DNA from: an uncultured Pelagibacteraceae bacterium
GTDB lineage: Bacteria > Pseudomonadota > Alphaproteobacteria > Pelagibacterales > Pelagibacteraceae
Assembly (NCBI GenBank): GCA_902527265.1
Contig: CABZNY010000008.1
Coordinates: 1-46,772, forward strand
Length of the DNA stretch: 46,772 bases
Reading direction: 5' to 3'
In this document: piece by piece, positions 10,477 to 41,969 of the stretch
How the letters are laid out: every line of letters begins with the position of its first letter
Position numbering within the stretch: the first letter of the stretch is position 1
Position numbers and translations under genes: made by a program
The notes under the pieces: model-generated
Seen by the model: only the letters and a program-made list of their open reading frames with translations
The model's database searches: none
What the model was told of the DNA's origin: nothing

Positions 10477-10775
10477 TATTTTTTGCCTGCTCCACCTTCA
10501 ACTTTAGCTTTTTTATCAGCTGGTGTATGACCAAAAAATTGTCTGGTTGGTGCAAACTCTCCAAACTTATGTCCCACCATATCTTCTGATATTGTTATTG
10601 GTATAAATTTTTTTCCATTATAGATTAAGAAACTTATTCCTACAAAATCTGGGATAATTGTAGATTTACGTGACCAAGTTTTAATTGGTTTTTTCACAGC
10701 TTCATTTTTCAATTTATTTACTTTTTTAATCAAGCTTTCCTCAACAAATGGTCCTTTCCAAACTGATCTAGTCAT
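10476..10775 (-). CDS. rpsS: 30S ribosomal protein S19
   Basis: Head protein next to S13. [34 protein letters not shown] and [15 protein letters not shown] are diagnostic. It is 99 residues, slightly longer at the C-terminus than E. coli S19. Three bases separate it from rplB. Confidence 0.98.
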
Positions 10776-10778
10776 ATT

Positions 10779-11612
10779 TTATGTTCTCTTTTTCTTTTTT
10801 CTTCTAATTATAAATTTATCTGTTCTTTTGTTGTCTCTAGTTTTTAATCCTTTTGCAGATTGACCAGTTGGTGAAACTGGATGTCTACCACCTGCAGATT
10901 TTCCTTCACCACCACCATGAGGGTGATCAACAGGATTTTTTACTACACCTCTTGTATGAGGTCTACGTCCCAACCATCTTGATCGACCAGCTTTTCCTAT
11001 TTTTATATTTTTTTGATCAGGATTTGATAAAACACCAATAGTTGCGAGAGAATTAGAATTGATTTTTCTGACCTCACCAGAAGTCATTTTTATAATTGAA
11101 TAATTTCCATCTATACCCGATATCGAAACAGATGTTCCTGCTGATCTTGCAATTTTTCCACCTCCTCCTGGATTAATTTCAACATTATGTATATCAACAC
11201 CCACAGGTATATCCTTTAAGGGTAGGCAATTTCCAATTTTAATTTCTGAGCTTGATCCATTCTGGATCTTATCACCAATTTTAATATCTTTTGGTGCTAA
11301 ATAATAAAATCTTTCTCCATCCTCAAATTTAACTAACATTATATGGCATGATCTATTAGGATCATATTCAATTCTCTCTACCTCTGCTATTGACGTTAAT
11401 TTTTTTCTATAAAAATCAATCTGTCTATATTTATGCTTATGACCTCCACCATGATTTCTGGATGTTATTCTTCCATAATTATTTCTACCTTTAGAGGAGT
11501 TATTAGGTGCAGTTAAATTCTTGAAAGGTTTGCCTTTCCAAAGATCTTTTCTGCTGACTAGAATTGTTCCTCTTGTAGATTTTGTATATGGTTTAAATGT
11601 TTTTAATGCCAT
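10779..11612 (-). CDS. rplB: 50S ribosomal protein L2
   Basis: Large-subunit protein next to the peptidyl-transferase centre. MALKTFKPYTKSTRGTILVS starts it. NHGGGHKHKYRQIDF lies near residue 53, and the C-terminal GVVKNPVDHPHGGGEGKSAG contains the functionally important His. It is 277 residues, normal for the family. Confidence 0.98.
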   Translation of the reverse strand: MALKTFKPYTKSTRGTILVSRKDLWKGKPFKNLTAPNNSSKGRNNYGRITSRNHGGGHKHKYRQIDFYRKKLTSIAEVERIEYDPNRSCHIMLVKFEDGERFYYLAPKDIKIGDKIQNGSSSEIKIGNCLPLKDIPVGVDIHNVEINPGGGGKIARSAGTSVSISGIDGNYSIIKMTSGEVRKINSNSLATIGVLSNPDQKNIKIGKAGRSRWLGRRPHTRGVVKNPVDHPHGGGEGKSAGGRHPVSPTGQSAKGLKTRDNKRTDKFIIRRKKKKRT

Positions 11613-11616
11613 TTAT

Positions 11617-11910
11617 TTAAATTCCTGTGGTTAGATCTATATTTTGACCTTTTTTCAATGTTATTATTGCTTTTTTGAATCCTTTAACTCTAACTTTTTT
11701 TCCTCTTGTAGTTTTAATTCTAGATTTTTTATTTATTATATTTATTTTAGTTACATTAACTTTAAATATTTTTTCAATATTATTTTTTAAATTTTTTTTA
11801 TTTGCTTTTTTATTTACTTTAAATATGATTTTATTTTGCTCTGAAAGATTTGTTGATTTTTCAGTTACAAGTGGTGATAATATTTTATCGTATAAATGTA
11901 ATTTTTCCAT
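11617..11910 (-). CDS. rplW: 50S ribosomal protein L23
   Basis: Tunnel-exit protein and docking site for trigger factor and SRP. LYDKILSPLVTEKSTNLSEQ opens it and GKKVRVKGFKKAIITLKKGQ closes the fold. It is 97 residues with strong Lys and Ile bias, typical of this AT-rich genome. It lies between rplD and rplB with gaps of two and four bases. Confidence 0.96.
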   Translation of the reverse strand: MEKLHLYDKILSPLVTEKSTNLSEQNKIIFKVNKKANKKNLKNNIEKIFKVNVTKINIINKKSRIKTTRGKKVRVKGFKKAIITLKKGQNIDLTTGI

Positions 11911-11912
11911 GA

Positions 11913-12533
11913 TTAATATCTTTTTTCTAATTCCTTTATTGAAGTTTCAGTAAATATAATTTTTTTAAATTTAGCTAAATCATAAGCACTAAAGTGATTT
12001 ACGTCTGTTATTTTTACATTGGGAATATTTCGTATTGATTTAATAATATTGTTTCTTGATTTTATATCAGCAATTATTATTGAATTTTTTGCTTCAAATT
12101 TAATTAATATGTTATTCATTTCTTTTGTTTTTTGTATTTCTTTTTGAATATCGTCTATGATAATTAAGTCGTTTAGTTTATTTTTTTTACTTATAAGGGA
12201 TGCTATACTTAGTTTCTTTTCGCTTTTATTGAGTTTTCTTTTTTTATAACTTAGTTCACCTTTTGGACCATGTGCAACTCCACCTCCAACAAATATTGGT
12301 GCTTTTTTACTTGCATGTCTTGCATTTCCTGTCCCTTTTTGTGCATATATTTTTGATGTAGATCCAGTAATTTCATTTTTTTGCTTAGTTTTTGCTTTTC
12401 TGCCCTTATAGTTAGCATTTGTTTTATATAATACGATACTCATTAGTTTATTATTAATTTTGGATCCAATTAATTTATCTGAAACTTCAATTGAATCTTT
12501 TTTTCCTTCAAAATTAATTTTATTTACTTTCAT
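11913..12533 (-). CDS. rplD: 50S ribosomal protein L4
   Basis: Tunnel protein; in gammaproteobacteria it also represses the S10 operon. The tunnel loop contains GSTSKIYAQKGTGNARHASK followed by FVGGGVAHGPKGE. At 206 residues it is normal. The rpsJ gene lies two bases after fusA, so there is no room for an S10 leader of the E. coli kind. Confidence 0.96.
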   Translation of the reverse strand: MKVNKINFEGKKDSIEVSDKLIGSKINNKLMSIVLYKTNANYKGRKAKTKQKNEITGSTSKIYAQKGTGNARHASKKAPIFVGGGVAHGPKGELSYKKRKLNKSEKKLSIASLISKKNKLNDLIIIDDIQKEIQKTKEMNNILIKFEAKNSIIIADIKSRNNIIKSIRNIPNVKITDVNHFSAYDLAKFKKIIFTETSIKELEKRY

Positions 12534-31361: not shown

Positions 31362-32131
31362 TAATTTGTTTCTTTTCTGATTTGCTCTATTTTAATTTTT
31401 TTTTGAAGACTTCTGTTTGAATCATATAAAAGATTAAATTTAACTTTTTTATTAATCTTAATAGATATTATCTTTGCATTTCTAACTTCGTAATTGTCAG
31501 CAACCGCACTTATTGGTCTTTTATTGATATTTAGATTTTTGATTGTTATTTTTGATTTATCGCTCACAATTCTTCCCTTCCATCTTCTAGGTCTGAAAGC
31601 GCTAATGGGCCTAATAGAAAGTTTTTTAGAGTCTAAGTTTAATATTGGTCCATAAACTGACATATTATATGCAGTGCTTCCTGCAGGTGTTGAAATTAAT
31701 ACACCATCAGAAACTAATTTTTTAATAATTTTTTGCGAACCGTTAGAAATTTCAAGTGATGCAGTTTGTCTACTTTGTCTTAAAATAGATACTTCATTGA
31801 TAGCAATAGACTTTTTAGTTTTATTAAACTTATTCTTTACACTCATTTCTAAAGGCGAAATCGAAACTTGTTTTGCTTTAGATAAATTTCTAATGGTATT
31901 TTTTGACGAAAACTTATTCATTAAAAAACCATAACTACCAGCATTAATTCCATAAAAGGGTTTTTTGTATTTATTATACTTTTTCAATGACGAGAGCATA
32001 AAACCATCACCCCCAACAACAATTATTAGATTGCATTTACCTAATGATATATTTTTGATTTTATGATCTAGAAAATTTTTAATTTTTTTTGATGTTTTTG
32101 TATGATCAAAAAGTATGTGTGGCTTTAACAT
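31361..32131 (-). CDS. nadK: NAD kinase
   Basis: Phosphorylates NAD to NADP. The GGDG motif is at residues 40-43 in IIVVGGDGFMLSSLKKY, followed by GINAGSYGFLMN. AINEVSILR and SDGVLISTPAGSTAYNMSVY are the other family motifs. It is 256 residues, on the short side. It begins four bases after the 3' end of tRNA-Leu and overlaps dmdA, so both may be read from the tRNA-Leu promoter. Confidence 0.92.
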   Translation of the reverse strand: MLKPHILFDHTKTSKKIKNFLDHKIKNISLGKCNLIIVVGGDGFMLSSLKKYNKYKKPFYGINAGSYGFLMNKFSSKNTIRNLSKAKQVSISPLEMSVKNKFNKTKKSIAINEVSILRQSRQTASLEISNGSQKIIKKLVSDGVLISTPAGSTAYNMSVYGPILNLDSKKLSIRPISAFRPRRWKGRIVSDKSKITIKNLNINKRPISAVADNYEVRNAKIISIKINKKVKFNLLYDSNRSLQKKIKIEQIRKETN

Positions 32132-32135
32132 TTAG

Positions 32136-32221
32136 TGGTGCCCTCGGCCAGACTCGAACTGGCACTCCATAAATGGCAAGGATTTTAAGTCCTTTGTGTC
32201 TACCAATTTCACCACGAGGGC
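32136..32221 (-). tRNA. tRNA-Leu (TAA), intact, integration target
   Basis: An 86-nt class II tRNA with acceptor GCCCTCG pairing CGAGGGC, encoded CCA, anticodon loop CTTAAAA (anticodon TAA), a long variable arm, and T-loop TTCGAGTC. Its 5' half up to the anticodon loop (32183-32221) is repeated at 35072 and 39072. I infer that its 5' half and promoter now come from the adjacent cassette, while the 3' half is ancestral. Confidence 0.96.
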
Positions 32222-32223
32222 AT
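32183..32223. repeat. att-like core copy A (within intact tRNA-Leu)
   Basis: First of three identical 41-bp copies. It covers tRNA nucleotides 1-39 (5' end through anticodon loop) plus two bases upstream. Identity with the other copies stops abruptly at the anticodon-loop side and fades gradually on the promoter side, which places the inferred crossover in or near the anticodon loop. Confidence 0.85.
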
Positions 32224-32239
32224 TAGTTATTTTCATGAG

Positions 32240-32268
32240 TGTTTATGCCAATATTTATAATTGAACAA
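32240..32268 (-). promoter_or_regulatory. Candidate tRNA-Leu promoter carried by cassette 1
   Basis: On the minus strand TTGTTC (32263-32268), 17 nt, then TAAACA (32240-32245), ending 18 nt before the tRNA. The equivalent block after copy B keeps TTGTTG-17-TAAATA. Copy C keeps the -10 but not the -35, since the phosphatase gene begins there. This is consistent with cassettes bringing a standard promoter for the rebuilt tRNA. Confidence 0.45.
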
Positions 32269-32305
32269 GAGTAATAAGTAAAATTTTTTTATTTTATCTC
32301 CCTGG

Positions 32306-32323
32306 CTTCTAGTTAGCTTCTAG
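32306..32323. promoter_or_regulatory. Cassette 1 left direct-repeat box (CTTCTAG x2)
   Basis: CTTCTAG at 32306 and again at 32317, a 7-bp repeat with a 4-bp spacer (11-bp period). It starts 83 bp from the end of core A, the same distance as the corresponding box in cassette 2. On the minus strand GAGATAA follows the box by five bases. Confidence 0.65.
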
Positions 32324-32325
32324 TT

Positions 32326-32341
32326 ATCCTATAAAATCCTA
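32326..32341. repeat. Cassette 1 left arm repeat (ATCCTA x2)
   Basis: ATCCTA at 32326 and 32336, 10 bp apart (TAGGAT on the minus strand). The stop codon of the last cassette gene lies directly beside the array, exactly as in cassette 2 (35215 and 35225). The right arm holds related TAGGAT repeats in inverted orientation. Confidence 0.6.
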
Positions 32342-32342
32342 T

Positions 32343-33017
32343 TTAATAAATTTCCTCACACTCATAAAGGTTATCTGTATCAATTACCGAACCATATTTT
32401 TTAATACTTTTTGCATCATATTTTGCTTTAGTAGTTTCTAGGTAAAGCTTATTTATTTTTTCAAAGTCATTTTGTAATTGTATAAGAATTCCCTCACTAT
32501 ATGAGCTATGTTTAAATTGAGTGTCGTATACTTTGAATTGAGCTTTAGCTACTTTTTCTAATTTTTTTGTAGTTTGTAAAGCTGTATCTGCAAGAAAGTA
32601 TTTTTTTAAGTCGTTATCATAATAAAAAACTCTATGAGACCAAATTGACATTACTCTATTATCAATCACAAAGAATCTATACCAGACATAAACATCGCTT
32701 AAAGAAAATAACTCATCTTGTAAATTTTCAAAGTAAAATGGAACAGTTTCAAATGGTGGCATAAATGCTGCTTCATCTTGATCGTACATCATTGTCAATC
32801 TTAATTCTTGATCTTCAAAAAAACCCACATAATCATAATCAACAGTTGCTTTTCCTTCAAGATGTTTACAAGCGAAACCTAGAGTAGCATAACCAATTGA
32901 AGGTTCTTTTGAGTTTGTCTTCTGTGTAATTAAAAAAATAAAGGAAAAGAAAAATAAAAGTTTTATCAAAGTAACAAATTTAATTTCTAGTTTGTATGTG
33001 AAATTCTCTTGCCTCAT
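32343..33017 (-). CDS. Exported or membrane-anchored protein of unknown function (cassette 1)
   Basis: I do not recognise a family. It has 224 residues with a hydrophobic stretch at about 16-31 (TLIKLLFFFSFIFLIT) that looks like a signal peptide or anchor. The mature part is rich in aromatic and acidic residues, has Cys near the start (GFACKHLEG) and two residues before the end (YECEEIY), and a helical Lys-rich region after residue 150. The ATG at 33017 overlaps the preceding gene by 38 nt, so a later non-ATG start nearer the hydrophobic stretch is possible. It is last in a three-gene unit, and its stop abuts the left arm repeats. Confidence 0.7.
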   Translation of the reverse strand: MRQENFTYKLEIKFVTLIKLLFFFSFIFLITQKTNSKEPSIGYATLGFACKHLEGKATVDYDYVGFFEDQELRLTMMYDQDEAAFMPPFETVPFYFENLQDELFSLSDVYVWYRFFVIDNRVMSIWSHRVFYYDNDLKKYFLADTALQTTKKLEKVAKAQFKVYDTQFKHSSYSEGILIQLQNDFEKINKLYLETTKAKYDAKSIKKYGSVIDTDNLYECEEIY

Positions 33018-33915
33018 TAAATTTAGAATATAGTAATTCTAACTCATCTTTTGACGGAAGTCTTTTATAAAATTCATCTACAAATTTTTCATCGCTATAT
33101 CTAATTTCGTTATCATTTAATAAATCAAGTATTCGTTTTCTATAATTATCAAGAAAACTAGCAAATTTACCATTCGGATTAACCGGCATATACTTTGATC
33201 TTTTTATAACTTGCTCTTTTAAAAAAGTTTTATAATTAAATGTAGCCCAAAAATATAATCTTTGACCAGTTGTATCTCCAGTTTTTCGTTTGATTTTTAT
33301 AAAAGATATTTCTTTCTTGTTGCTTAGGGCAATTGTGCTGAAATGAGCAATTATGTCGATATTTTTCTTCTCAATAGGAAGATACAAATTTGTTGAGTCT
33401 CCATCTTCTGTAAAGCCAAGGCTGCCCCGGTTAGTGATCCCCTCCGCAACAGAATTCCTATAAATATCTGAAAATGAATATAAATTTAAAGGGCAAAAAC
33501 CTGAGGTAGACACTTTTGAATATCTATTCTCTACTCCGCAAGGAACGCAAGCATTTACTTGCACAACGTTTAAAAGTTTATTTTTATTTTTATTTTTAAG
33601 TATTGTAAAACTTGACAAAGGTTTACACCATGAATTTTTTACCCAGATATCTTTTTTATTTCGATAAAATTTTTTTTGTTTTTTTTTTTTATTTTTAATA
33701 ACATTATAAGAAATTTGTTCACTTTTAATTTTATCTAAAAAATAAATTTCGTCTCTACATAATCCTCTACAAGTGTGATCTCCTGGTTTATGATTACCTG
33801 ATAGAAATTTCTCTTTATGTTTTTTTAAATATTCTTCGTAGGCTTTTCTCTCTTTTTCTCCAGCGAGGCTAATATTGTTTATCATTATTATAAAAAGTAT
33901 TAAGATAATTTTCAC
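32980..33915 (-). CDS. Exported Cys-containing protein of unknown function (cassette 1)
   Basis: No family recognised. It has 311 residues. The N-terminus MKIILILFIIMINNISLAG is a signal peptide with likely cleavage after SLA. Seven cysteines follow in pairs (TCRGLC, NSWC, NACVPCG, GFCPLN), suggesting disulphides in the periplasm or outside the cell. A Lys/Arg-rich segment (about 70-90) contains a run of A on the plus-strand complement. The C-terminal part (about 230-311) is helical and charged. It starts at the last base of the upstream stop, so translation is coupled. Confidence 0.75.
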   Translation of the reverse strand: MKIILILFIIMINNISLAGEKERKAYEEYLKKHKEKFLSGNHKPGDHTCRGLCRDEIYFLDKIKSEQISYNVIKNKKKKQKKFYRNKKDIWVKNSWCKPLSSFTILKNKNKNKLLNVVQVNACVPCGVENRYSKVSTSGFCPLNLYSFSDIYRNSVAEGITNRGSLGFTEDGDSTNLYLPIEKKNIDIIAHFSTIALSNKKEISFIKIKRKTGDTTGQRLYFWATFNYKTFLKEQVIKRSKYMPVNPNGKFASFLDNYRKRILDLLNDNEIRYSDEKFVDEFYKRLPSKDELELLYSKFNEAREFHIQTRN

Positions 33916-34898
33916 TAAAAACCTCTCAATGTTCTTGTGACACCATACTTAAACCATTTTCTATGCATAAAACTATTTGAAGGTGCATATTTAAACATAT
34001 TTCTCATAAAAAGAGGCTGAGATTTTACATTTGCAAGAGACCCTGCTTGTTGAGTTGTTAAACCAGATGAAGTTGAGGCACTTGATCCTGAGGAAGAAAA
34101 TGTACTTTTTGAAAATGTTTTAAAAATTCCTTTGGCAACCATGCCTACGACAGCAGCTATTATTATAAACTTAATAACTTTTTGCCAATTTGTTTGATTC
34201 TTTGTCCAGTTTTTTTCTTTTTGAACTTTATATTCTGGTTTTGTGAAATACTCTGTACCTAGAGCATTCATTAAAGTGAAAAAGAAATCAAAACCATCAC
34301 CTTTTTGGTACATTTTATCCAATTCACTTTGACCCCATATATTTTCTTTTTTAAGGGTATACACTAGTCCTCTAGGCTTAGTCAGTATAAATGAATTAAA
34401 AACTATATGTTCTATTCTCTCTTTTGTTTTAATACTAGAAAATTGATAAACATCATACGATCTAAACTCTTTATTAAAACAATCGATAAAATTATTATAA
34501 TTTTTTAAGTTTTTGCACTTTGTATTTTTAAGAATGTTGTTAATTTCTGTTTTTGCCGATTCAATTTTATAGCTAGAATTCAAAAAATCATTCCAATTTT
34601 CAATTGCAACTTCATTATTTATAAAGCCCTCATCAATACTTTCATTAAAAATATTTGCTACAGATATAATATCAAAAATTTCTTTTTTTCTCTCAATATT
34701 TAATTTACCTATTTCTTTGGAAATAATACTTTCCTCTTCTATACAACCTACAAATTCTTTAAAATTTTTTAAATACTTATTACAATTTATGAATTCGTAA
34801 AAATTTGTCTCATTTTCAATAGTAATAGAATTAGAATATGATAGTGTTGGGTTTAAGATCAATACTGTTGATACAATAATTATTAAAATTTTCTTCAC
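33915..34898 (-). CDS. Exported protein with C-terminal membrane segment, unknown function (cassette 1)
   Basis: No family recognised. It has 327 residues. The signal peptide MKKILIIIVSTVLILNPTLS ends near residue 22. The exported region has four regularly placed Cys (INC, FVGC, TKC, FIDC) in two similar blocks: NFYEFINCNKYLKNFKEFVGC and KCKNLKNYNNFIDC, hinting at an internal repeat. A transmembrane segment lies at about 241-259, followed by a Ser-rich stretch and a basic C-terminus. It is the first gene of the cassette, and the CTTCTAG box lies 28 nt upstream of the ATG. Confidence 0.72.
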   Translation of the reverse strand: MKKILIIIVSTVLILNPTLSYSNSITIENETNFYEFINCNKYLKNFKEFVGCIEEESIISKEIGKLNIERKKEIFDIISVANIFNESIDEGFINNEVAIENWNDFLNSSYKIESAKTEINNILKNTKCKNLKNYNNFIDCFNKEFRSYDVYQFSSIKTKERIEHIVFNSFILTKPRGLVYTLKKENIWGQSELDKMYQKGDGFDFFFTLMNALGTEYFTKPEYKVQKEKNWTKNQTNWQKVIKFIIIAAVVGMVAKGIFKTFSKSTFSSSGSSASTSSGLTTQQAGSLANVKSQPLFMRNMFKYAPSNSFMHRKWFKYGVTRTLRGF

Positions 34899-34926
34899 AA
34901 TTTTACTACAATAACTTATCTCTTAA

Positions 34927-34944
34927 CTTCTAGTCTACTTCTAG
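34927..34944 (-). promoter_or_regulatory. Cassette 1 right direct-repeat box upstream of first gene
   Basis: CTTCTAG at 34927 and 34938 (CTAGAAG on the minus strand), same 7-mer and same 11-bp period as the cassette's left box. On the minus strand the box is followed by TTAAGAGATAAG, a possible -10 region, and then the gene start. The layout resembles operators where an activator replaces the -35, or an excisionase/arm site overlapping a promoter. It starts 145 bp before core B. Confidence 0.6.
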
Positions 34945-35004
34945 TTTGTAAGAATTTATTATTCATATTTTCCAATAAAAATAATTAAAGGTTTTTATAA
35001 AGTG

Positions 35005-35048
35005 TAGGATTTAATGGGATTTAAGACTGCATGAGACTGTGTGAGACT
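35005..35048. repeat. Cassette 1 right arm: TAGGAT-type pair and three AGACT iterons
   Basis: TAGGAT (35005) and TGGGAT (35015) are followed by AGACT at 35024, 35034 and 35044, all at 10-bp steps within each group. The iterons lie 48, 38 and 28 bp before core B, the same offsets as in cassette 2. This resembles the arm-type sites of tyrosine-recombinase attachment regions. Confidence 0.65.
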
Positions 35049-35071
35049 ATAAAATATCTCTACCCTATGTT

Positions 35072-35112
35072 TTTTAAGTCCTTTGTGTCTACCAATTTCA
35101 CCACGAGGGCAT
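35072..35112. repeat. att-like core copy B (tRNA-Leu 5'-half fragment)
   Basis: It is identical over 41 bp to copies A and C. It is not a tRNA gene: the sequence on the anticodon side is cassette 1 right arm, not a 3' half. Similarity with the block after copy A continues for roughly 80 bp, including the tRNA promoter, then into the boxes by architecture rather than sequence. Confidence 0.85.
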
Positions 35113-35194
35113 GAGTTAATTTCATGATTATTTATGCTAATATTTATAATTCAACAAGTTTAATAAGTAAATTTTTTTTATTTTATCTCTCTGT

Positions 35195-35212
35195 ATACGA
35201 GGCTTGTACGAG
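35195..35212. promoter_or_regulatory. Cassette 2 left direct-repeat box (ATACGAG/GTACGAG)
   Basis: ATACGAG at 35195 and GTACGAG at 35206, 11 bp apart. It begins 83 bp after core B, exactly as the CTTCTAG pair in cassette 1. On the minus strand GAGATAA follows by five bases. Confidence 0.65.
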
Positions 35213-35214
35213 AC

Positions 35215-35230
35215 ATCCTATATTATCCTA
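35215..35230. repeat. Cassette 2 left arm repeat (ATCCTA x2)
   Basis: ATCCTA at 35215 and 35225, 10 bp apart, offset 103 bp from core B as in cassette 1. The stop codon of the last cassette gene lies directly beside it. Unlike the box next to it, this sequence is shared by both cassettes. Confidence 0.6.
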
Positions 35231-35231
35231 T

Positions 35232-36197
35232 TTAAAATCCTTTTTTGGTCCATTTTTTATAAATTGTTTTTTCTTTTTTTTGATCTTTGGGAGGTATACA
35301 CATATCACTTCTAAAATCATAATCTAATATTTGTGAACCACTTTTGACATAGGTTGTCGCTAAAAATGTATAATTATCATAGCCTTCGTTCTTATAAAAA
35401 TTTCCGTTGGAGGATAAATTAAATTTATCACTTATTATTGTATTTCCATCTTCTTGCCTGATTTCAAATTCTACGTTTTTTTTACCTTGGTAATCCACTT
35501 TTACAGATCCAATTTTTTCAGGTTTTGAGTCATAAGTTTGTGAATGAACAGTAATTTCAGATTTATCACTATTTAGTTTAAAGTATTGAAAACCGAATTC
35601 TTCACCACTTTTTATTTTTTCAACACCCACAGACCTATCTTCAATCATAACATTTAAACAAGCAAAATATATTTCCTCCTTAACAGCAGGTTTAATTTCC
35701 TCAGAAATATTAGATTTTTTTGCTACTGATGAAGACTCTTCGATAAAATTATATTTTATTAATATTTCTAATATATCATTATCACTTATACTCTTTTTTA
35801 TACCTTCGCCTTTTGGATCACTATTCCAACTAATATATCTAAAGTCACCCTCCGGAAATCTATAATCTATTTTATTCCATCGAATTACTTTTTGCTTACT
35901 TTTTGTTTGAGCGAATATAAAGCATTTATCTCCAGTCTCTTTTTTGCATTTACGTAATAAAGTTGAGGTTGCACCAGGACCACCACTACAATTTCCTGAC
36001 GGACAAATTCCGTAATATCCAATACTACCATCTTTTGATATAACAAATGATGTTGAAAATTCATTTCTTAGATATGCAATTAAATCATCTAAAGCTTTAT
36101 CGCTAATTTTTAAATCACCTTTTCCAATTTTTGCATAGGAATTTACGTTTATAAAAAAGCTAAATAATATAATGAGATACACTAATAATTTTTTCAT
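35232..36197 (-). CDS. Exported Cys-motif protein, caspase-module partner (cassette 2)
   Basis: 321 residues of unknown function. A signal peptide (about 1-22, ending NSYA) is followed by a domain of about 110 residues: GKGDLKISDKALDDLIAYL, then DGSIGYYGICPSGNC, KCKKETGDKCFIFAQ and KVIRWNK. The gene at 45931 encodes the same pattern (LS..A, DGS, CP..C, C..TG..C..FA, RW). The C-terminal region (about 175-321) is a separate beta-rich part with two more Cys, one in YFACLNV and one in SDMCIPP. It lies 41 nt after the small exported gene and ends at the left arm repeats. Confidence 0.75.
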   Translation of the reverse strand: MKKLLVYLIILFSFFINVNSYAKIGKGDLKISDKALDDLIAYLRNEFSTSFVISKDGSIGYYGICPSGNCSGGPGATSTLLRKCKKETGDKCFIFAQTKSKQKVIRWNKIDYRFPEGDFRYISWNSDPKGEGIKKSISDNDILEILIKYNFIEESSSVAKKSNISEEIKPAVKEEIYFACLNVMIEDRSVGVEKIKSGEEFGFQYFKLNSDKSEITVHSQTYDSKPEKIGSVKVDYQGKKNVEFEIRQEDGNTIISDKFNLSSNGNFYKNEGYDNYTFLATTYVKSGSQILDYDFRSDMCIPPKDQKKEKTIYKKWTKKGF

Positions 36198-36238
36198 ACT
36201 TTATTTTTTCTAATTACTCTTCAAATATAAAGATTAAT

Positions 36239-36829
36239 TTAATAAGCTTCATTATCAATGAAATATAAATAATTTTTTGAGCTAATACTAACATTAAGCG
36301 TATCATACCAATTGTTTTTAATTACAGTTTTATCGTTTTTGTCCCAATTAGCACACCATACTCTAACACTACCGTCATTAAGATTAAAATCTGTCAAATA
36401 AGCTTTAGAATTCCCATAAGTATAATTATAATAATTTTCGTATTCATTTTTTTTTACTCCATAAAAGATTTTTTCTAATTCATTTACTACGACTTTCTTT
36501 TTTTTTAAACATTCATTTAATGAAATTTTAAGTCTCCCTTTAACAGATTGAATTTTATAATTTGGATCATTATCGAGAATATGAAAATCATAAGCTTCGT
36601 ACGAACTATTAATTTCTGGAAGTAATAAAATAATTTTCATTTTTTTTGATCCTGGATAATAAATAACATTTTTTAATGCGTTAGTAATTTTAGTTTTGCT
36701 AAAGTATTTTAATAAGCTATCTCCAATACTCATTTCATCAATTTCAAAATCTCTAATATCGTCAGCTTTAATATGATTATTTAATATTAAGAAAAAAAAA
36801 ATTAACAGATATGTTTTTATTTGTTTCAT
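36239..36829 (-). CDS. Small exported protein of the DIRDFEI type, unknown function (cassette 2)
   Basis: 196 residues. The signal peptide MKQIKTYLLIFFFLILNNHI ends near residue 22. The mature protein begins DDIRDFEIDEMSIGDSLLKY, a start I associate with uncharacterised SAR11 exported proteins. The C-terminal segment DGSVRVWCANWDKNDKT to YFIDNEAY is matched by the partial gene at 46630 (DRFIIACYDWAEKTGY to FLNEEAYK). It lies 17 nt after the caspase gene. No enzymatic motif is visible. Confidence 0.75.
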   Translation of the reverse strand: MKQIKTYLLIFFFLILNNHIKADDIRDFEIDEMSIGDSLLKYFSKTKITNALKNVIYYPGSKKMKIILLLPEINSSYEAYDFHILDNDPNYKIQSVKGRLKISLNECLKKKKVVVNELEKIFYGVKKNEYENYYNYTYGNSKAYLTDFNLNDGSVRVWCANWDKNDKTVIKNNWYDTLNVSISSKNYLYFIDNEAY

Positions 36830-36846
36830 ATAATTAATTATCTTTT

Positions 36847-38904
36847 TTATCTGTAACTCATCAATACATTATCAGGGTCACCTGCAAGCATCGGATCTTG
36901 TTGTCTGTTTTGTGTAAAAGCCTCTTGTGAAACATTATCTTTTAAGTAAGCAATGAGTTCACCATTAGTAATCTTCTTATCCTCATTCTCATCTGCCTTA
37001 CCTTCTAGCCCTTTCATTAAATAATAAGAGAACATTCCATGTTTAGCTTCTTCGATACTGCCTGACGTTTGATCATAATTTGAGGCGGTAAATATCGTAA
37101 AATTAGTTGGTGTATCTTGTTCATCAGCAACAATTCTAATAGGTCTTAAACTTGCAACTAACATTCTCTCATCTCTTGTTTGGCCGCTATAACAAGTATC
37201 AAAGAACATTGTTACTGATCTTGGACTAACTTTGTTTATAAGAGATATTAATTCAACTCTAGAAATAGCTGTATCTTCTAATAAAGACGACTCTCCATCT
37301 TGTGGTAATATATATAAATCTTCACCATTATCAGATGCTAGTCCATGACCGGCAAAAAATAAATGTATGTCCTTACCACCATCACCTGCAATCTTTGGTA
37401 ACCATAGTTTGAAGGCTTTTAATACTTGTGATCTTGTAGCCTTATCATCAATTAATATTTTAAGGTTTGATGGTTTAATGCCTAAAGCACGTGTAGCGTA
37501 AGCTCTAAAGGCTTTTGCATCTCTATTAGCGTATTTAGCATCTAAATTGTTAAGGTTTTCGTATTTCTCAATTCCTATAATAATAGCTATTTTATTTTTA
37601 TCAGTTTTAACCTTTACATTATTAGGATTTAAATCTTCGTAAACTTTAGCAGTATCAGTTGATTGTAAATCAATAGTTACTTTAATAGTTTTCTCAGCTC
37701 TATTATTCCATTTATCAATTGCAACAATTTTAATTTCTTCTGCAACATCTGGATCAATATTAAATCTTTCTAACTCGAACTTCCCTTTTTTAACCTGGAC
37801 TTGTCTTCCATCTATAGTTAAATAGATCTGACTTTTATCCCTAACCTTCCCTTTCAAAGTATATGCTTGACTATCAACAGTAATAGCTTCTGCTATCTCT
37901 ATTACAGGTGCATCGTTATCAATATCATTATTTTTTGGTTTAAACTCATTTTGCTCAGATTTGTTTGCTATTGCTGTATTAGTTCTTACTCCCTTGTATT
38001 TTCCTTTTTTAGGAAGTTCTCTATTGTTTTTAATAAAGCCCCAATCTCCATCTAACTTTGCAAAATTTTCTTGGAACTTAAATTTAAACCATCCATTTGT
38101 TTCACCTTCTGTCCAAAATATTTTTAAGGTTTGGTCATCTAATAGTTTACCATCATACAATGGTCCTCCATAAATTTTATTATTCACTTCGTAGGTATAG
38201 TTTCCTATTATTTCACCATATTTATTTGTATTAATATTTAATTTGAAAGGGTCTCCCTGACTATTTTTACCTTCATATGAACCAATTAAATTTTTTGGTA
38301 TACCTTTATCCTGTGCTTCGGTTGGTTCTGCTTTAGCAATTTGGGTGTTTATGTCTGAACCACAAAGCCATTCCCACTTTTGAGGATCATATACATGCAT
38401 TTTGGCATTTTTGGCTTTGAAACAATATAAGCTTTTTGAAACAGTTGTGCCGTTCCAATTATAATTACTATTTTCTTTTTGACTTAGTTCTGCTTTGGCA
38501 ATTTGGGTATCAGTATTTAAAAATTTTATTTTAGCTATTTTAGATTTTGATATAAAACGTTTTTTTTTACCATTAATATATAGATTGCCATATTCTCTTT
38601 TTCCTTTAAAAGAATTTTTTTTTATTTTTATCTTATATGTTGTGTTGTTAAATTTAATCGAATATTTTTTGCCTCTAATATTTTTCCAAGTACACGAAGA
38701 TTCATCATAATAAGCTCTATTAATTAATGCATTTATATCTATGGTATGTAAACAAGTATTATTTTCTAGAAAGACAATATGGTTAGCTGAATCATTTAAT
38801 TTCCAAACAGTGTTCACAAGTTTGTCTTGGGCTGACTGAGCATTAACACTGAACGTCAACCCCAAACCGATAACTATAAATAGATATGCCAGTAAGCGTT
38901 TCAT
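36847..38904 (-). CDS. Exported caspase-like (C14) peptidase with Ig-like domain (cassette 2)
   Basis: Predicted exported cysteine peptidase, 685 residues. Order: signal peptide (1-22, ending SVNA); an N-terminal unknown region; a short WNG...SLYC...WEWLC motif (about 149-185) shared with the protein at 43407; a beta-rich part; an Ig-like domain (about 331-410, from DNDAPVIEIAEA); and a caspase domain (about 430-640). Catalytic His520 is in FFAGHGLAS and Cys571 in FFDTCYSGQ. An EF-hand-like loop D638-E649 (DENEDKKITNGE) sits near the C-terminus, suggesting calcium control. It is the first gene of the cassette, behind the GTACGAG box. Substrate unknown. Confidence 0.88.
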   Translation of the reverse strand: MKRLLAYLFIVIGLGLTFSVNAQSAQDKLVNTVWKLNDSANHIVFLENNTCLHTIDINALINRAYYDESSCTWKNIRGKKYSIKFNNTTYKIKIKKNSFKGKREYGNLYINGKKKRFISKSKIAKIKFLNTDTQIAKAELSQKENSNYNWNGTTVSKSLYCFKAKNAKMHVYDPQKWEWLCGSDINTQIAKAEPTEAQDKGIPKNLIGSYEGKNSQGDPFKLNINTNKYGEIIGNYTYEVNNKIYGGPLYDGKLLDDQTLKIFWTEGETNGWFKFKFQENFAKLDGDWGFIKNNRELPKKGKYKGVRTNTAIANKSEQNEFKPKNNDIDNDAPVIEIAEAITVDSQAYTLKGKVRDKSQIYLTIDGRQVQVKKGKFELERFNIDPDVAEEIKIVAIDKWNNRAEKTIKVTIDLQSTDTAKVYEDLNPNNVKVKTDKNKIAIIIGIEKYENLNNLDAKYANRDAKAFRAYATRALGIKPSNLKILIDDKATRSQVLKAFKLWLPKIAGDGGKDIHLFFAGHGLASDNGEDLYILPQDGESSLLEDTAISRVELISLINKVSPRSVTMFFDTCYSGQTRDERMLVASLRPIRIVADEQDTPTNFTIFTASNYDQTSGSIEEAKHGMFSYYLMKGLEGKADENEDKKITNGELIAYLKDNVSQEAFTQNRQQDPMLAGDPDNVLMSYR

Positions 38905-38926
38905 AACATTTATATTATCTCTTTAT

Positions 38927-38944
38927 GTACGAGGTGTGTACGAG
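38927..38944 (-). promoter_or_regulatory. Cassette 2 right direct-repeat box upstream of caspase gene
   Basis: GTACGAG at 38927 and 38938 (CTCGTAC on the minus strand). GAGATAATATAAATG follows on the minus strand and may include the -10, giving a very short leader before the ATG at 38904. It starts 145 bp before core C, the same offset as the box in cassette 1. No -35 consensus is visible, so an activator or a recombination protein may bind here. Confidence 0.6.
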
Positions 38945-39003
38945 AATTTGATCATTTTTATCTATTGATTTTACTATTTAATTTAAGAGTGTAATTAATT
39001 TTA

Positions 39004-39048
39004 TAAGATTTTATAGGATAAATAGACTGCACTGGACTAACACAGACT
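39004..39048. repeat. Cassette 2 right arm: TAGGAT-type pair and three RGACT iterons
   Basis: TAAGAT (39004) and TAGGAT (39014), then AGACT, GGACT and AGACT at 39024, 39034 and 39044. The iterons have the same 48, 38 and 28 bp offsets from core C as in cassette 1; the TAGGAT pair is shifted by one base. The intervening bases differ between cassettes, so spacing is better conserved than sequence. Confidence 0.65.
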
Positions 39049-39071
39049 CACTTTAATCTTTACCCATCGTC

Positions 39072-39112
39072 TTTTAAGTCCTTTGTGTCTACCAATTTCA
39101 CCACGAGGGCAT
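39072..39112. repeat. att-like core copy C (tRNA-Leu 5'-half fragment)
   Basis: Third identical 41-bp copy. I take it as the original chromosomal 5' half of tRNA-Leu, displaced by the insertions. Similarity with the other tRNA flanks continues to about 39147 (TTTCATGAGTATTTATG and AATATTTA) and then ends at the phosphatase gene. Confidence 0.85.
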
Positions 39113-39151
39113 TTGTGAATTTCATGAGTATTTATGATAATATTTACTTTA

Positions 39152-39955
39152 ATGAAACAAAAAAAACAAATTATAATTTTCACTGATCTAGACGGATCTC
39201 TATTAGATAAAGAGACATTTAAGTTTGATGAAATCAAGGATTATTTCAAAGAATTAATTTCAAAGGGTATTAAAATAATTCCAAACTCAAGTAAAACAGA
39301 ATCCGAATTAACAGATTTTAATGAACAGTATAAACTAAATTTAACTTTTATTTCAGAGAATGGATCATCAATTCATGGACTTAATTTTATAAATAAAGAC
39401 TTACCAGACAAAATATCACTAAGTAGACCTGTTGATCAAATTATTTCAATTTATAATGAAATTATTCCGAATGATTTAAAACAGAAAATTAATTTTATCT
39501 TAAAATTAAATGTTAAAGAACAAAAAAAAATTTTTGGACTACCGCAGGATAAAATGATTTTAGCTAAAAATAGAAACTATTCATTACCAATTCAATTCAA
39601 AGGAAATGAAATTGAGAAAAATGAATTTGTTAAAATTATAAATGATGTTGGATTAACTGTTCAAACTGGGGGTAGAATAATGAATATTTGTGATAATGTT
39701 AATAAATCAAAAGCTATGCTCAAAACACTTCAGCTAATTAGAAAAGAATTAGATGACGAGATAATAACAATTGGTGTTGGAGACAATGAAAATGATATAG
39801 AAATGATAAAACAGTCTCATTACCCATGTTTGGTGATGAATGAAAATTTTAATAGTTCATTGATAAATATAGATAATTTAATTAAATCTACTGAGCCATC
39901 TCCTAAGGGATGGGCTGATGTGATCAAAACGGCTATACAAAAAATTGAAACTTAA
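39152..39955 (+). CDS. Mannosyl/glucosyl-3-phosphoglycerate phosphatase (HAD family)
   Basis: Probably removes the phosphate from glucosyl-3-phosphoglycerate to give the compatible solute glucosylglycerate. HAD motif I is FTDLDGSLLD with nucleophile Asp12. NSSKTESEL and ISENGSSIHGL match the MPGP type, and GVGDNENDIEMI carries the late acidic motif. An in-frame ATG at 39134 exists, but it lies in sequence shared with the tRNA-Leu flanks, so I prefer 39152. The product is then 267 residues. The synthase gene follows after 14 nt. Confidence 0.82.
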   Translation: MKQKKQIIIFTDLDGSLLDKETFKFDEIKDYFKELISKGIKIIPNSSKTESELTDFNEQYKLNLTFISENGSSIHGLNFINKDLPDKISLSRPVDQIISIYNEIIPNDLKQKINFILKLNVKEQKKIFGLPQDKMILAKNRNYSLPIQFKGNEIEKNEFVKIINDVGLTVQTGGRIMNICDNVNKSKAMLKTLQLIRKELDDEIITIGVGDNENDIEMIKQSHYPCLVMNENFNSSLINIDNLIKSTEPSPKGWADVIKTAIQKIET

Positions 39956-39969
39956 GATAGGTTCCCGCC

Positions 39970-41190
39970 ATGAGTGATTTCTATCAGGATGGAACTATAT
40001 CAACACTTCATGATTTTGGAACAAAGTCAACCAAAGATCTAGAAAAAGATCTATTAAAATTTTCCAAAGAAAGAAAAATGGAACTTATTTTACCTTGTCT
40101 TTATTCAGAATTAAAAGGTGATGCTTTACCTAAAATTGTTAGTGAGATAAGTAAAACGAATTATTTAAATCATATAATTATTGGTTTAGATAAAGCTACC
40201 GAAGCACAAGCGCGAAAGGCTTGGACATTTTTTGAAAAATTAGAAACTCCTTTTACAATTCTCTGGAATGACGGTCCTAACCTTAAAAAATTGGACAAAG
40301 AATTAAAAAAATTAGGACTTGCTCCAAATGAATACGGAAAAGGTAGAAATGTTTGGTATTGTATTGGAATGTCTATAGCAAGAGATAGTGCAAGGTCTGT
40401 AGCACTACATGATTGTGATATAAAAACATATGACAGAAGAATGTTGGCTAAATTGTTCTATCCAGTTGTAAATCCATTATTTAATTTTGAATTTTGCAAA
40501 GGCTATTACCCAAGAGTTGCAGATAATAAAATGAATGGAAGGGTTGCAAGATTACTAGTTTTTCCACTCTTGAATGCATTAGAAAAAACGATAGGAAATA
40601 GCGATTACTTAAACTTTATGAAATCATTTAAATATCCTTTGGCAGGGGAATTTTCATTTAGAAGAAATATTTTACCTGAATTAAGAATTTCATCAGACTG
40701 GGGTATAGAAATTGGAATTTTATCTGAAATGCAAAGAAATTTTTCTCCTCAAAATATATGTCAGGTAGATTTAGCAGATACCTATGATCACAAGCATCAA
40801 AATTTATCTATAAATAACGAAAAACAAGGTTTATCAAGAATGTCGCTTGATATCATCAAAACATTTATAAAAAAATTAGCAACTCAAGGTCACTCATTTA
40901 GCAAAGAGCAGTTTAGATCTCTTAAAGCAACTTATTATAGAGCTGCATTAGATTTGATAGATGCATATAGGAATGATGCTCAAATGAATGGATTAAAATT
41001 CGACTCTCATACAGAAGAAAAAGCTGTTGAATTATTTGCTGCAAATATCATGAAAGCAGGTGATGCTTTCTACCAAAATCCTATGGATACACCTTTTATT
41101 CCAACATGGAGTAGAGTTAAAAGTGCAATACCAGATTTTTTAATACGATTAGAAAAAGCAGTTAACGAAGATAATATGCGCTACATTTAA
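39970..41190 (+). CDS. gpgS: Glucosyl-3-phosphoglycerate synthase (GT-A fold)
   Basis: Probably joins a nucleotide-activated glucose to 3-phosphoglycerate, the first step of glucosylglycerate synthesis. At 406 residues it shows a GT-A fold with the metal-binding D148-C149-D150 (VALHDCDIKTYD), the acceptor region FEFCKGYYPRVADNKMNGRV, and SSDWGIEIGILSEM. These fit GpgS-type glycosyltransferases. The adjacent phosphatase completes the pathway. A mannosyl version is the alternative. Its stop overlaps the convergent hydratase stop by four bases. Confidence 0.75.
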   Translation: MSDFYQDGTISTLHDFGTKSTKDLEKDLLKFSKERKMELILPCLYSELKGDALPKIVSEISKTNYLNHIIIGLDKATEAQARKAWTFFEKLETPFTILWNDGPNLKKLDKELKKLGLAPNEYGKGRNVWYCIGMSIARDSARSVALHDCDIKTYDRRMLAKLFYPVVNPLFNFEFCKGYYPRVADNKMNGRVARLLVFPLLNALEKTIGNSDYLNFMKSFKYPLAGEFSFRRNILPELRISSDWGIEIGILSEMQRNFSPQNICQVDLADTYDHKHQNLSINNEKQGLSRMSLDIIKTFIKKLATQGHSFSKEQFRSLKATYYRAALDLIDAYRNDAQMNGLKFDSHTEEKAVELFAANIMKAGDAFYQNPMDTPFIPTWSRVKSAIPDFLIRLEKAVNEDNMRYI

Positions 41191-41969
41191 ATAAATGTTG
41201 AGTTTACATCTCCAAAAGCTGATGAAGTAACTTCGATCAACTTCTTCTCATTAATTGGAACAGGAAATCCATATGCTCCTGTTAAAATTAAATCATTTTT
41301 TTTCAAAATATTATTTGTTTTTGCCTTATCTTTAACAAGCCACTCTATTTCTCCAAGCACATCAAAGGGCCATTTTTTATCCATCCATTTATCAACCACT
41401 TCATTGTCATAGACTAATTTTAAATCTGTGATTTCATTGCTTTTTGGAACCATGTTTTTTTCACCTAAAATAACTCCAGCATGAATTGCATTATTGGCTA
41501 AAAGTTCTGCACCATTTGGGGCATCTCCATTAAAAACTAAATTATGTATTTCTATTAAGGGATAAATTGATTGAACAGACTCCAATATATAATTAAATGA
41601 TACTAAATCAGGATTGATATCTCTATTAAGTGTAATTCCAAATTCAGCTTCCATTGCAGGATTAGAGTAATCTTTTTTATTTAGTTCGACTCCAGTTTGA
41701 TGAAGTTCACTATTCCAAAGAAATCCACTTGCTGGATGAGTAAATCCCATTTTTTTTTGTGTATCTTTTGAAACACATCCTATTTTATAACCAATAATTT
41801 CCTCACCTCTTTTTAATCTCAAATCAGCAACCTTAGACTGAATTAGTAAGGCGTTTTCATTGGTTATCTTAACTTTGTCTTTAAATAACTGACTAGGGTT
41901 TTTTGCATCGTAATCTTCAAGTATTTTGTTGGAATATAGATCTAAATCTTTTGAGGATAAGTTGGTCAT
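41187..41969 (-). CDS. 2-keto-4-pentenoate hydratase-like protein (MhpD family)
   Basis: Member of the small fumarylacetoacetase-fold hydratase/decarboxylase group, which act on 2-oxo-4-enoates from aromatic breakdown. At 260 residues, family features are GEEIIGYKIGCVSKDTQKKM, GFTHPASGFLW, PAMEAEFGITL (metal-binding acidic residues) and NNAIHAGVILG. No other aromatic-degradation gene is nearby, so the true substrate is open. Its ATG overlaps the stop of the upstream membrane protein gene by one base. Confidence 0.75.
   Translation of the reverse strand: MTNLSSKDLDLYSNKILEDYDAKNPSQLFKDKVKITNENALLIQSKVADLRLKRGEEIIGYKIGCVSKDTQKKMGFTHPASGFLWNSELHQTGVELNKKDYSNPAMEAEFGITLNRDINPDLVSFNYILESVQSIYPLIEIHNLVFNGDAPNGAELLANNAIHAGVILGEKNMVPKSNEITDLKLVYDNEVVDKWMDKKWPFDVLGEIEWLVKDKAKTNNILKKNDLILTGAYGFPVPINEKKLIEVTSSAFGDVNSTFI

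Follow-up and report, generated by a model that had tools for sequence, protein, structure and literature searches.

Tandem cassettes in a SAR11 tRNA-Leu gene carry paired tags that may address them to traveling tyrosine integrases

The window, that is, the whole 46,772-nucleotide (46.8-kb) stretch of uncultured Pelagibacteraceae DNA analyzed here, contains two tandem elements, E1 (32187-35075, 2889 bp) and E2 (35076-39075, 4000 bp), inserted in the 5' half of a tRNA-Leu(UAA) gene. Each supplies a new tRNA-Leu 5' half, and the tRNA is restored: the complete gene lies at 32139-32221 on the minus strand (ARAGORN; Rfam tRNA, 58.6 bits), with its 5' half, the core, now part of E1. Core copies at 32187 and 35076 delimit E1, and E2 is documented by its core copies, ORFs, and Pfam matches. 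The 5' half carried by E2 (core TTTTAAGTCC) occupies 35072-35146 (-) together with a conserved upstream stretch, a putative promoter, and the outermost displaced half with its upstream stretch (39072-39146, -) forms the right end of the array. The ORFs of E1 (32343-33017, 32980-33915, and 33915-34898; ORF list and Pfam) and of E2 (35232-36197, 36239-36829, and 36847-38904) are all on the minus strand. The first gene of E2 (36847-38904) encodes a 685-aa caspase-domain protein (Peptidase_C14, PF00656, E = 2e-14; PADLOC caspase). A Pfam search of both elements detected no integrase, and Rfam returned nothing besides the tRNA over 31500-41500.

Short repeats are set into both arms of each element. 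In the left arm of E1, a TTATCTC box read from the sequence (32294-32300, +) is followed by two copies of CTTCTAGT at an 11-bp step (32306-32324, +), a tag pair that we regard as putative integrase arm sites, and by a TAGGAT pair (32326-32341, -). On the right side, a further TTATCTC box (34916-34922, +, likewise read from the sequence) precedes a second CTTCTAGT pair with the same step and a 7-mer identical to that on the left (34927-34945, +), a TAGGAT-like pair matching TAGGATN4WRGGAT exactly (35005-35020, +), and three GACT boxes at 10-bp steps (35025-35048, +), a putative directionality-factor array. E2 repeats this arrangement, with TTATCTC boxes read at 35183-35189 and 38915-38921 (both +), identical TACGAG pairs with an 11-bp step at 35196-35212 and 38928-38944 (both +), a TAGGAT pair at 35215-35230 (-), a TAGGAT-like pair with one mismatch at 39004-39019 (+), and three GACT boxes at 10-bp steps at 39025-39048 (+). 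A preliminary description of this DNA had placed a TAGGAT-like pair and three RGACT repeats at 10-bp steps in the right arm of each cassette, and two TAGGAT copies on the opposite strand in the left arm; both placements hold for E1 and E2, the left-arm pairs showing 0 mismatches.

We assembled a set of 82 elements in 61 arrays, comprising the window's two elements and 80 from relatives. The elements are not independent, as 67 pairs share more than half of the shorter member. L041, which overlaps L040, was excluded, so that one G182 core pair is uncounted, and 73 of 102 cassette protein representatives were used, the 29 omitted being from L042, L044 (all but one), L082, and L083. As in attL and attR sites, an identical core is found at both ends, with the crossover within the tRNA gene, and phased arm repeats lie at fixed distances from the core across the 82 elements. 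In 58 of 61 arrays the first core has the complete tRNA 3' half on its left; this is so for 0 of 82 later cores. No fewer than 81 of 82 elements have TTTT ahead of the core, and TATCTC occurs at the offset matching the E1 left-arm box in 34.

When GACTN6GACTN6GACT was searched with up to one mismatch, the window contained exactly two matches (35025-35048 and 39025-39048), both perfect, against an expected count of 0.02 from 100 shuffles. Among the 82 elements, GACT starts at -41 in 64, -31 in 62, and -51 in 54. The positional conservation on which the preliminary description had staked its reading thus extends to many more ends, with three boxes in register in 50 of 82 elements, two in 18, one in 2, and none in 12; random 250-bp windows from the same loci (n = 20,000) had three in 13 cases and two in 26. 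GACT is confined to the right arm and stays constant while the tags of elements differ. Integrase-bearing elements at this site have the array as well, with three boxes in 3/7 and two in 4/7. In more distant helpers (L172-L174 and L184), a GTGTGA-type 10-bp repeat takes its place, while paired tags beside TATCT are retained at a step of 11 bp in L172 and 12 bp in L173, L174, and L184.

The TAGGAT pairs are inverted at the two element ends. The preliminary description had spoken of inverted groups of repeats, which is accurate for TAGGAT and not for GACT, found in the right arm alone. With two mismatches allowed, TAGGATN4WRGGAT occurs about as often as chance predicts (17 matches versus 17.4), which leaves only near-exact matches and their places as meaningful. 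Similarly, TAGGATTTTATAGGAT with up to two mismatches matches only the four arms in the whole draft genome, a count that is not unusual by itself since a reversed control pattern gave six matches. TAGGAT pairs are absent from 7/7 integrase-bearing elements at this site; they are cassette-only boxes.

Near both ends of the elements lies a pair of 7- to 8-bp boxes spaced by 11 bp, which varies between elements and matches within an element. These tag pairs were absent from the preliminary list of repeats, and we consider them the most telling feature of the locus. In 57 of 82 elements, both fixed places show a repeat of at least 7 of 8 letters with an 11-bp step; the same test at five shifted places yielded 0 to 5 of 82 on the left and 0 on the right. 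A full pair at both places is lacking in the other 25 elements. Among 38 unique elements, left and right tags agree in 6.95 of 8 letters, compared with 4.89 for shuffled partners (sd 0.16; maximum 5.5 in 5000 shuffles). Tags are unequal at the two ends in 6 of these 38, and such mixed-tag elements contained no convincing inner arm, with two weak matches in L083_0. The window's own tags are CTTCTAG (E1) and GTACGAG (E2).

Some relatives carry a candidate recombinase for E1 and E2. Six helper elements of 7.7-8.9 kb with a tyrosine integrase of ~545 aa occupy the same tRNA-Leu site. Three (L049, L164, and L182) are integrated, and three (L116, L145, and L152) are contigs with end overlaps of 99, 123, and 99 bp that retain a single core once the overlap is removed, in keeping with circular contigs. 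End overlaps of contigs may also arise from tandem copies. L156 bears an integrase and has no end overlap; L170, L171, L185, and L186, with partial or interrupted integrases, were excluded. R379, K406, R491, H514, and Y524, which we take to be the catalytic residues, are invariant in 13/13 integrases. An integrase with this R-K-R-H-Y set on the same core occurs in relatives, with none in the window's own draft genome; that draft is 84.7% complete and may therefore have missed a helper. Phage satellites combine an integrase with a primase, lack capsid genes, and are packaged by a helper phage; the genes of the L116 helper include the integrase, an AEP primase/DUF5906 protein, and a RusA-like protein. 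Helper integrases are infrequent in chromosomes, with 4/397, 6/399, and 1/169 genomes in overlapping draws. In viral contigs, the GACT triplet with the core gave three matches (L116, L145, and L156), all integrase-bearing. A tblastn search of 50,697 phage records with the L164 integrase gave no match at 1e-5, and scanning viral sequences with only the L182 integrase likewise found none. The tRNA query is matched by Pelagibacter phages HTVC119P and HTVC200P and by the uncultured phage KM23-C739. Within them, the 18-base core (up to 3 substitutions) has a copy in KM23-C739 only, with no adjoining GACT array, and neither two GACT boxes in register nor an exact 11-bp pair lies within 350 bp of the BLAST match in HTVC119P or HTVC200P.

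All six helpers have a tag pair in the left arm. Three further tag copies, at least one exact and the others degenerate, lie within the first ~25 codons of their integrase genes. For example, the L182 element has the tag TGTGCTGG and the L164 element GGTACTGG. L184, a distant helper, has a left tag that equals none of the three copies within its integrase gene. The tRNA-Leu helpers have six distinct tags, four of which recur among the 22 distinct cassette 7-mers; these 4/22 7-mers account for 14 of 59 cassettes. The commonest cassette 7-mer (15/59) has no matching helper, and among the helpers identified none matches CTTCTAG or GTACGAG.

The N terminus of the integrase is a candidate reader of the tags. 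A model of the arm domain (pLDDT 82, one member; L179, whose site was not identified, was used in it) had as its three best PDB matches the arm-type binding domains of HPI and HAI7/P4-like integrases (Z 9.3, 9.0, and 8.4; next 4.6; Foldseek E 0.02-0.05). Profile PF13356 matched 4 of 14 arm domains (best E = 0.0054), member 1 scoring 13.8 bits against a cut-off of 27. A first integrase fold (five rows) was poor (pLDDT 44.7) and was used only to suggest the strand order and to set one residue window. When catalytic distance was controlled for, tag distance tracked arm-domain residues 93-108 (partial r 0.51, p 0.0005, n = 12), in a sheet window picked partly after the alignment had been seen and with the tags of L173, L174, and L168 read by eye. 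It also tracked residues 28-72 (0.39) and 109-140 (0.38). Residues 73-83 and 84-92 alone were not significant (p 0.11 and 0.10), and residues 141-259 showed no association (n = 12). The L041 integrase did not enter this test, as its tag, GTGTGGAAC, was incompatible with the shared frame. L116 and L145, 90% identical with unequal tags, differ at 13/25 sheet positions versus 28/440 elsewhere; for L116 and L156, the one same-tag pair, the figures are 3/25 versus 25/440. L152 and L049, with unequal tags, showed no sheet excess (7/29 versus 199/515). Given the post hoc window, the eye-read tags, and the single same-tag pair, the domain may evolve fast for other reasons.

From the sequences compared, we document a tandem layout, a restored tRNA, fixed arms, integrase-bearing relatives at the same site (circular contigs among them), nearly identical cassettes on diverged host flanks, and element-specific tag pairs that usually agree between the two ends. 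The preliminary proposal that these are tyrosine-recombinase attachment sites gains support from the repeated tRNA-Leu core, the fixed arms, the one-core circular contigs, and the integrase in relatives. Our preferred reading, to which we give a probability of about 75%, is that E1 and E2 are cassettes mobilized in trans, with the 11-bp pairs as the arm-type address of the integrase and the GACT boxes as a directionality-factor array. A tyrosine integrase from the 7.7- to 8.9-kb satellite-like elements would act in trans on the nonautonomous E1 and E2, inserting cassettes at the anticodon-loop half of tRNA-Leu(UAA) and later excising them. The 11-bp pairs are best read as element-specific arm sites, presumably recognized by the N-terminal three-stranded sheet of the integrase, in which case the tag would be an address pairing each cassette with integrases whose arm specificity matches. 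A cassette's tag seems to specify which traveling integrase may move it. The one-sided GACT triplet is probably an excision array, as suggested by its position and by the weak matches of a ~97-aa helper protein, a candidate directionality factor, to AlpA (1/7 members, E = 0.03) and a resolvase HTH (1/7, E = 0.004); that this protein binds the array is a more tentative part of the scheme. A broader proposal, to which we give slightly less than even odds, is that SAR11 has an addressed cassette system, with one tRNA-Leu dock, many interchangeable cassettes of one to a few genes, and fast-diverging satellite integrases whose sheet and tag change together, each cassette being loyal to one integrase type. 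In that scheme, with right-hand tag copies in the first codons of the integrase gene, enzyme and address would partly be one piece of DNA, inherited as a unit.

The preliminary description had assigned the role of integrase arm sites to the TAGGAT and GACT boxes themselves. They are phased 10-bp direct repeats at fixed places near the core, and GACT occurs in integrase-bearing elements too. Yet GACT is found in one arm only and does not vary with the tags and integrase arm domains, it gives way to a GTGTGA-type array in L172-L174 and L184 where paired tags persist, and TAGGAT is missing from all seven helpers at this site; this assignment is not supported, and we consider it unlikely. A different reading is that the 11-bp pairs are bound by some other element-specific protein, such as a replication initiator or repressor. 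Iterons are carried by P4 ori and crr, helpers encode a primase/DUF5906 protein, and the right pairs of E1 and E2 sit 24-29 bp upstream of each element's first gene, a possible place for an operator. On either side of the recombination core, the boxes nevertheless keep a set position with respect to it, copies fall inside the integrase gene, and the arm domain both has a predicted fold like that of known arm binders and covaries with the box, all of which makes another binding protein improbable.

Cassettes could also owe their movement to a host Xer-like recombinase, since the window's own genome yielded a single PF00589 protein, whose best matches, below cut-off, are XerD/XerC models. This protein is ~305 aa, and its Pfam matches are SAM-like and catalytic only, with no arm domain among them, so the phased arm sites would lack a reader; with an integrase at the same core in relatives, we give this idea hardly any credence. 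Alternatively, the array could be an ancient remnant that no longer moves and has been reshuffled by homologous recombination of its tRNA halves, which would fit the rarity of helper integrases in chromosomes and the existence of mixed-tag elements. This is very unlikely in view of the circular integrase-bearing contigs and of near-identical cassettes beside diverged host flanks, one case consisting of 4991 bp of 100% identity adjoining a flank of 77.8% identity.

P4-type integrases target tRNA genes, and integron arrays hold small tandem cassettes at one site. The predicted fold of the helpers' N-terminal domain (one member) is that of the arm-binding domain of P4-type integrases from the HPI and HAI7 islands. 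Unlike in P4-type attP, arm sites here vary by element, those on the right fall within the coding region of the integrase, and integrase-less cassettes have the same core. Compared with integrons, a tRNA core and arms apparently replace attC, each cassette has its own arms, and no resident integrase was found: no integrase gene adjoins the array, and the draft's sole PF00589 protein is on another contig. Tandem small cassettes with a recombinase elsewhere are likewise seen in CALINs, as outlined in PMC11389934. In the KplE1 prophage (IntS/TorI), according to PMC2951348, the attachment region and the integrase promoter overlap, and sites for the directionality factor TorI are grouped with arm and core sites in front of the integrase gene; in the SAR11 elements, tag copies run on into the integrase gene itself, and cassettes lacking an integrase share the same arms. 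Dehalococcoides ssrA islands are tandem at one RNA gene, with an integration module in some only, and mobilization together with neighbors has been proposed; they differ in using a serine recombinase and the 3' end of tmRNA, and the sections of PMC3146451 available contain no mention of element-specific arm tags. Tycheposons of marine streamlined bacteria, as defined secondhand in PMC10872708, have a tRNA at the border, their own tyrosine recombinase, and a large cargo (4-200 kb); by that definition E1 (2.9 kb) and E2 (4.0 kb), in which Pfam detects no recombinase, do not qualify, and our 57 fully tagged cassettes have a median of 2.7 kb. Integrating T7-like cyanophages and pelagiphages, as portrayed in PMC8776855, are phages with their own integrase, unlike E1 and E2. 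No description of SAR11 arrays of this kind or of variable arm tags was found in the literature searched, which lay mostly outside subscription papers.

SAR11 bacteria rank among the ocean's most abundant cells, with streamlined genomes; to our knowledge, little is understood of how they acquire and exchange genes. If the tag is the address of an integrase, the pairing of cassette and mover could be read directly from sequence, and natural pairs of tag and arm domain would constitute a set of integrases differing in arm specificity on one core. At least two copies of the tRNA-Leu 5' half occur in 63 of 297 sampled family genomes (a hand count, with a few genomes having copies on separate contigs). 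The cassettes between these copies carry diverse genes, including restriction and other defense-like genes, and 19 of the 57 fully tagged ones hold a single gene of at least 100 aa.

The window comes from a 1.14-Mb draft assembly (contig G000:C8) in which, at 84.7% completeness, an Xer-like recombinase was the only recombinase found. tRNA searches place a complete tRNA-Leu(UAA) on its minus strand at 32139-32221. The 5' half of this gene, together with about 36 upstream bases, recurs at 35072-35146 and 39072-39146, and we therefore read two elements in tandem, E1 (32187-35075) and E2 (35076-39075). Displaced 5' halves like these are what elements usually leave when they recombine within the anticodon loop, each bringing its own 5' half. 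Pfam identified a caspase-domain protein in E2 and no recombinase in E1 or E2.

At least one copy of the tRNA-Leu 5' half (the core) was present in 209 of 297 family genomes searched. We retrieved 80 stretches, added the window, and omitted the overlapping L041, leaving 80 loci: 61 arrays with at least two cores and 19 single-core loci. The arrays hold 82 elements in all, including E1, E2, and one integrase-bearing element, L049_0. A complete tRNA 3' half adjoined the first core in 58 of the 61 arrays and none of the 82 later cores.

Our analysis reveals a new feature of these elements, a tag of 7-8 bp in two copies at an 11-bp step, located at about +118 and about -150 from the core. It reads CTTCTAG at both ends of E1 and TACGAG at both ends of E2. 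The pair was present at both fixed places in 57 of 82 elements and almost never at shifted places. Tag sequence varies between elements (22 distinct 7-mers in the 59 cassettes whose left pair is canonical), yet left and right ends agree far beyond shuffled partners. Ends carried differing tags in 6 of 38 unique elements, which may be hybrids; a search for inner arms within them gave nothing convincing.

Several lines of sequence evidence support the tag as a putative integrase arm site, one that would serve as an address for mobilization in trans by integrase-bearing helper elements. The IMG/VR contigs L116, L145, and L152 have terminal overlaps of 99, 123, and 99 bp and a single core once these are removed, and would most simply be circles with a joined site. 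Each encodes a tyrosine integrase of about 545 aa, accompanied in L116 and L152 by a primase/DUF5906 protein and in L116 by a RusA-like protein; L049, L164, and L182 are integrated relatives. All six helpers carry a tag pair in the left arm and three tag copies within the first ~25 integrase codons, at least one exact and others degenerate. Chromosomal helper integrases were rare (4/397, 6/399, and 1/169 genomes in overlapping draws). A helper is known for 4 of the 22 cassette tags; none found so far carries the tag of E1 or E2. A distant group with related integrases and another target (L172-L174 and L184, 8.9-9.1 kb; end overlaps in L172-L174, a whole contig in L184) follows the same plan, with a left-pair step of 11 bp (L172) or 12 bp and a GTGTGA-type 10-bp repeat in place of GACT. 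The left tag of L184 is identical to none of the tag copies in its integrase gene.

A model of the integrase N-terminal domain built on 14 sequences (pLDDT 82) had three best solved-structure matches, each an arm-type DNA-binding domain from a P4-like integrase (Z 8.4-9.3, next match 4.6; Foldseek probability 0.99-1.00, E 0.02-0.05). Across 12 integrases, tag distance correlated with arm-domain distance after catalytic-domain distance was removed. Covariation was strongest at residues 93-108 (partial r 0.51, p 0.0005). Residues 28-72 and 109-140 likewise covaried with the tag; residues 73-83 and 84-92, taken singly, and 141-259 did not. In close pairs with different tags (L116/L145, L182/L164, L173/L174), changes concentrate in the sheet region; this excess was not seen in L152/L049, and the sole same-tag pair, L116/L156, showed no pile-up there. 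Numbers are small throughout, and the residue window was partly picked after inspection.

The repeats in the preliminary description proved real. The window has two copies of the phased GACT triplet, more than chance would give, and near-exact TAGGAT pairs lie at all four arms, in the opposite orientations proposed (left arms minus strand, right arms plus strand). The arms are fixed relative to the core across the 82 elements: GACT starts at -41 in 64, -31 in 62, and -51 in 54. Of the 82, 34 have a TATCTC box at +108 in the left arm and 23 have one at -160 or -159 in the right arm. The proposed tyrosine-recombinase attachment sites are well supported, and the confirmed observation leads to integrase attachment biology in a new variant. 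Among the 57 cassettes tagged at both ends, 48 had GGAT in the right arm and 54 had TCCYA in the left. Because GGAT was absent from all seven integrase-bearing elements at the tRNA-Leu site and their sole TCCYA, in L145, is that element's own tag, the TAGGAT pairs are confined to cassettes. The GACT array occurs on one side only, between core and integrase gene. In the KplE1 prophage, sites for the directionality factor TorI are reported to lie within the attachment region, ahead of the integrase gene (PMC2951348). Within the trans-mobilization reading, we infer at about even odds that GACT is a directionality-factor array. The helpers' ~97-aa protein gave a weak helix-turn-helix match in one of seven members and a weak AlpA match in one of seven.

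The cassettes look mobile from sequence comparison. L105_0 and L106_0 share 4991 identical bp beside host regions only 77.8% identical, and L089_0 and L102_0 are 99.4% identical against 67.8% for the host region. In the 57 cassettes, 147 of 161 genes are directed toward the tRNA, and 19 cassettes hold a single gene of at least 100 aa. Counting ATG starts only, 38 of 80 elements have a first gene that starts 165-200 bp from the core; the distance is 171 bp in E2 (window 38904) and 178 bp, with a GTG start, in E1 (window 34898). By eye, first-gene N-termini are often signal-peptide-like (e.g., MKKLL-IVLGLL) and common to otherwise different proteins. Could such starts be a built-in expression and export leader? 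In a set of 73 cassette proteins, the cargo comprises, among others, restriction proteins (type I, type IIG, and McrBC-like), methylases, trypsin-like peptidases, and the caspase.

The cassette system may use other tRNA genes too. In L183 (G661), an integrase relative at 10693-12369 adjoins an apparent tRNA-Ser 5' half; the left arm is cassette-like (a CTTCAAG pair plus TCCTATAAAATCCTA), and one gene has an N-terminus resembling that of the E2 caspase protein. Four elements of 1.5-2.0 kb (L053_0, L057_0, L060_0, L061_0) have ACTACACTAG pairs at +98 and -81 without a GACT array and make up a putative second family of cassettes at this tRNA gene. The IMG/VR viral contigs L146 and L150 carry the tRNA-Leu core and, beside it, pairs of GGGCAACT or GGGTAACT stepped by 11 bp, without GACT. 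Finally, window 39134-41190, after the array, encodes a HAD phosphatase and a 406-aa neighbor, both of which lie between two cores, without GACT arms, in L046_0 and L075_1.
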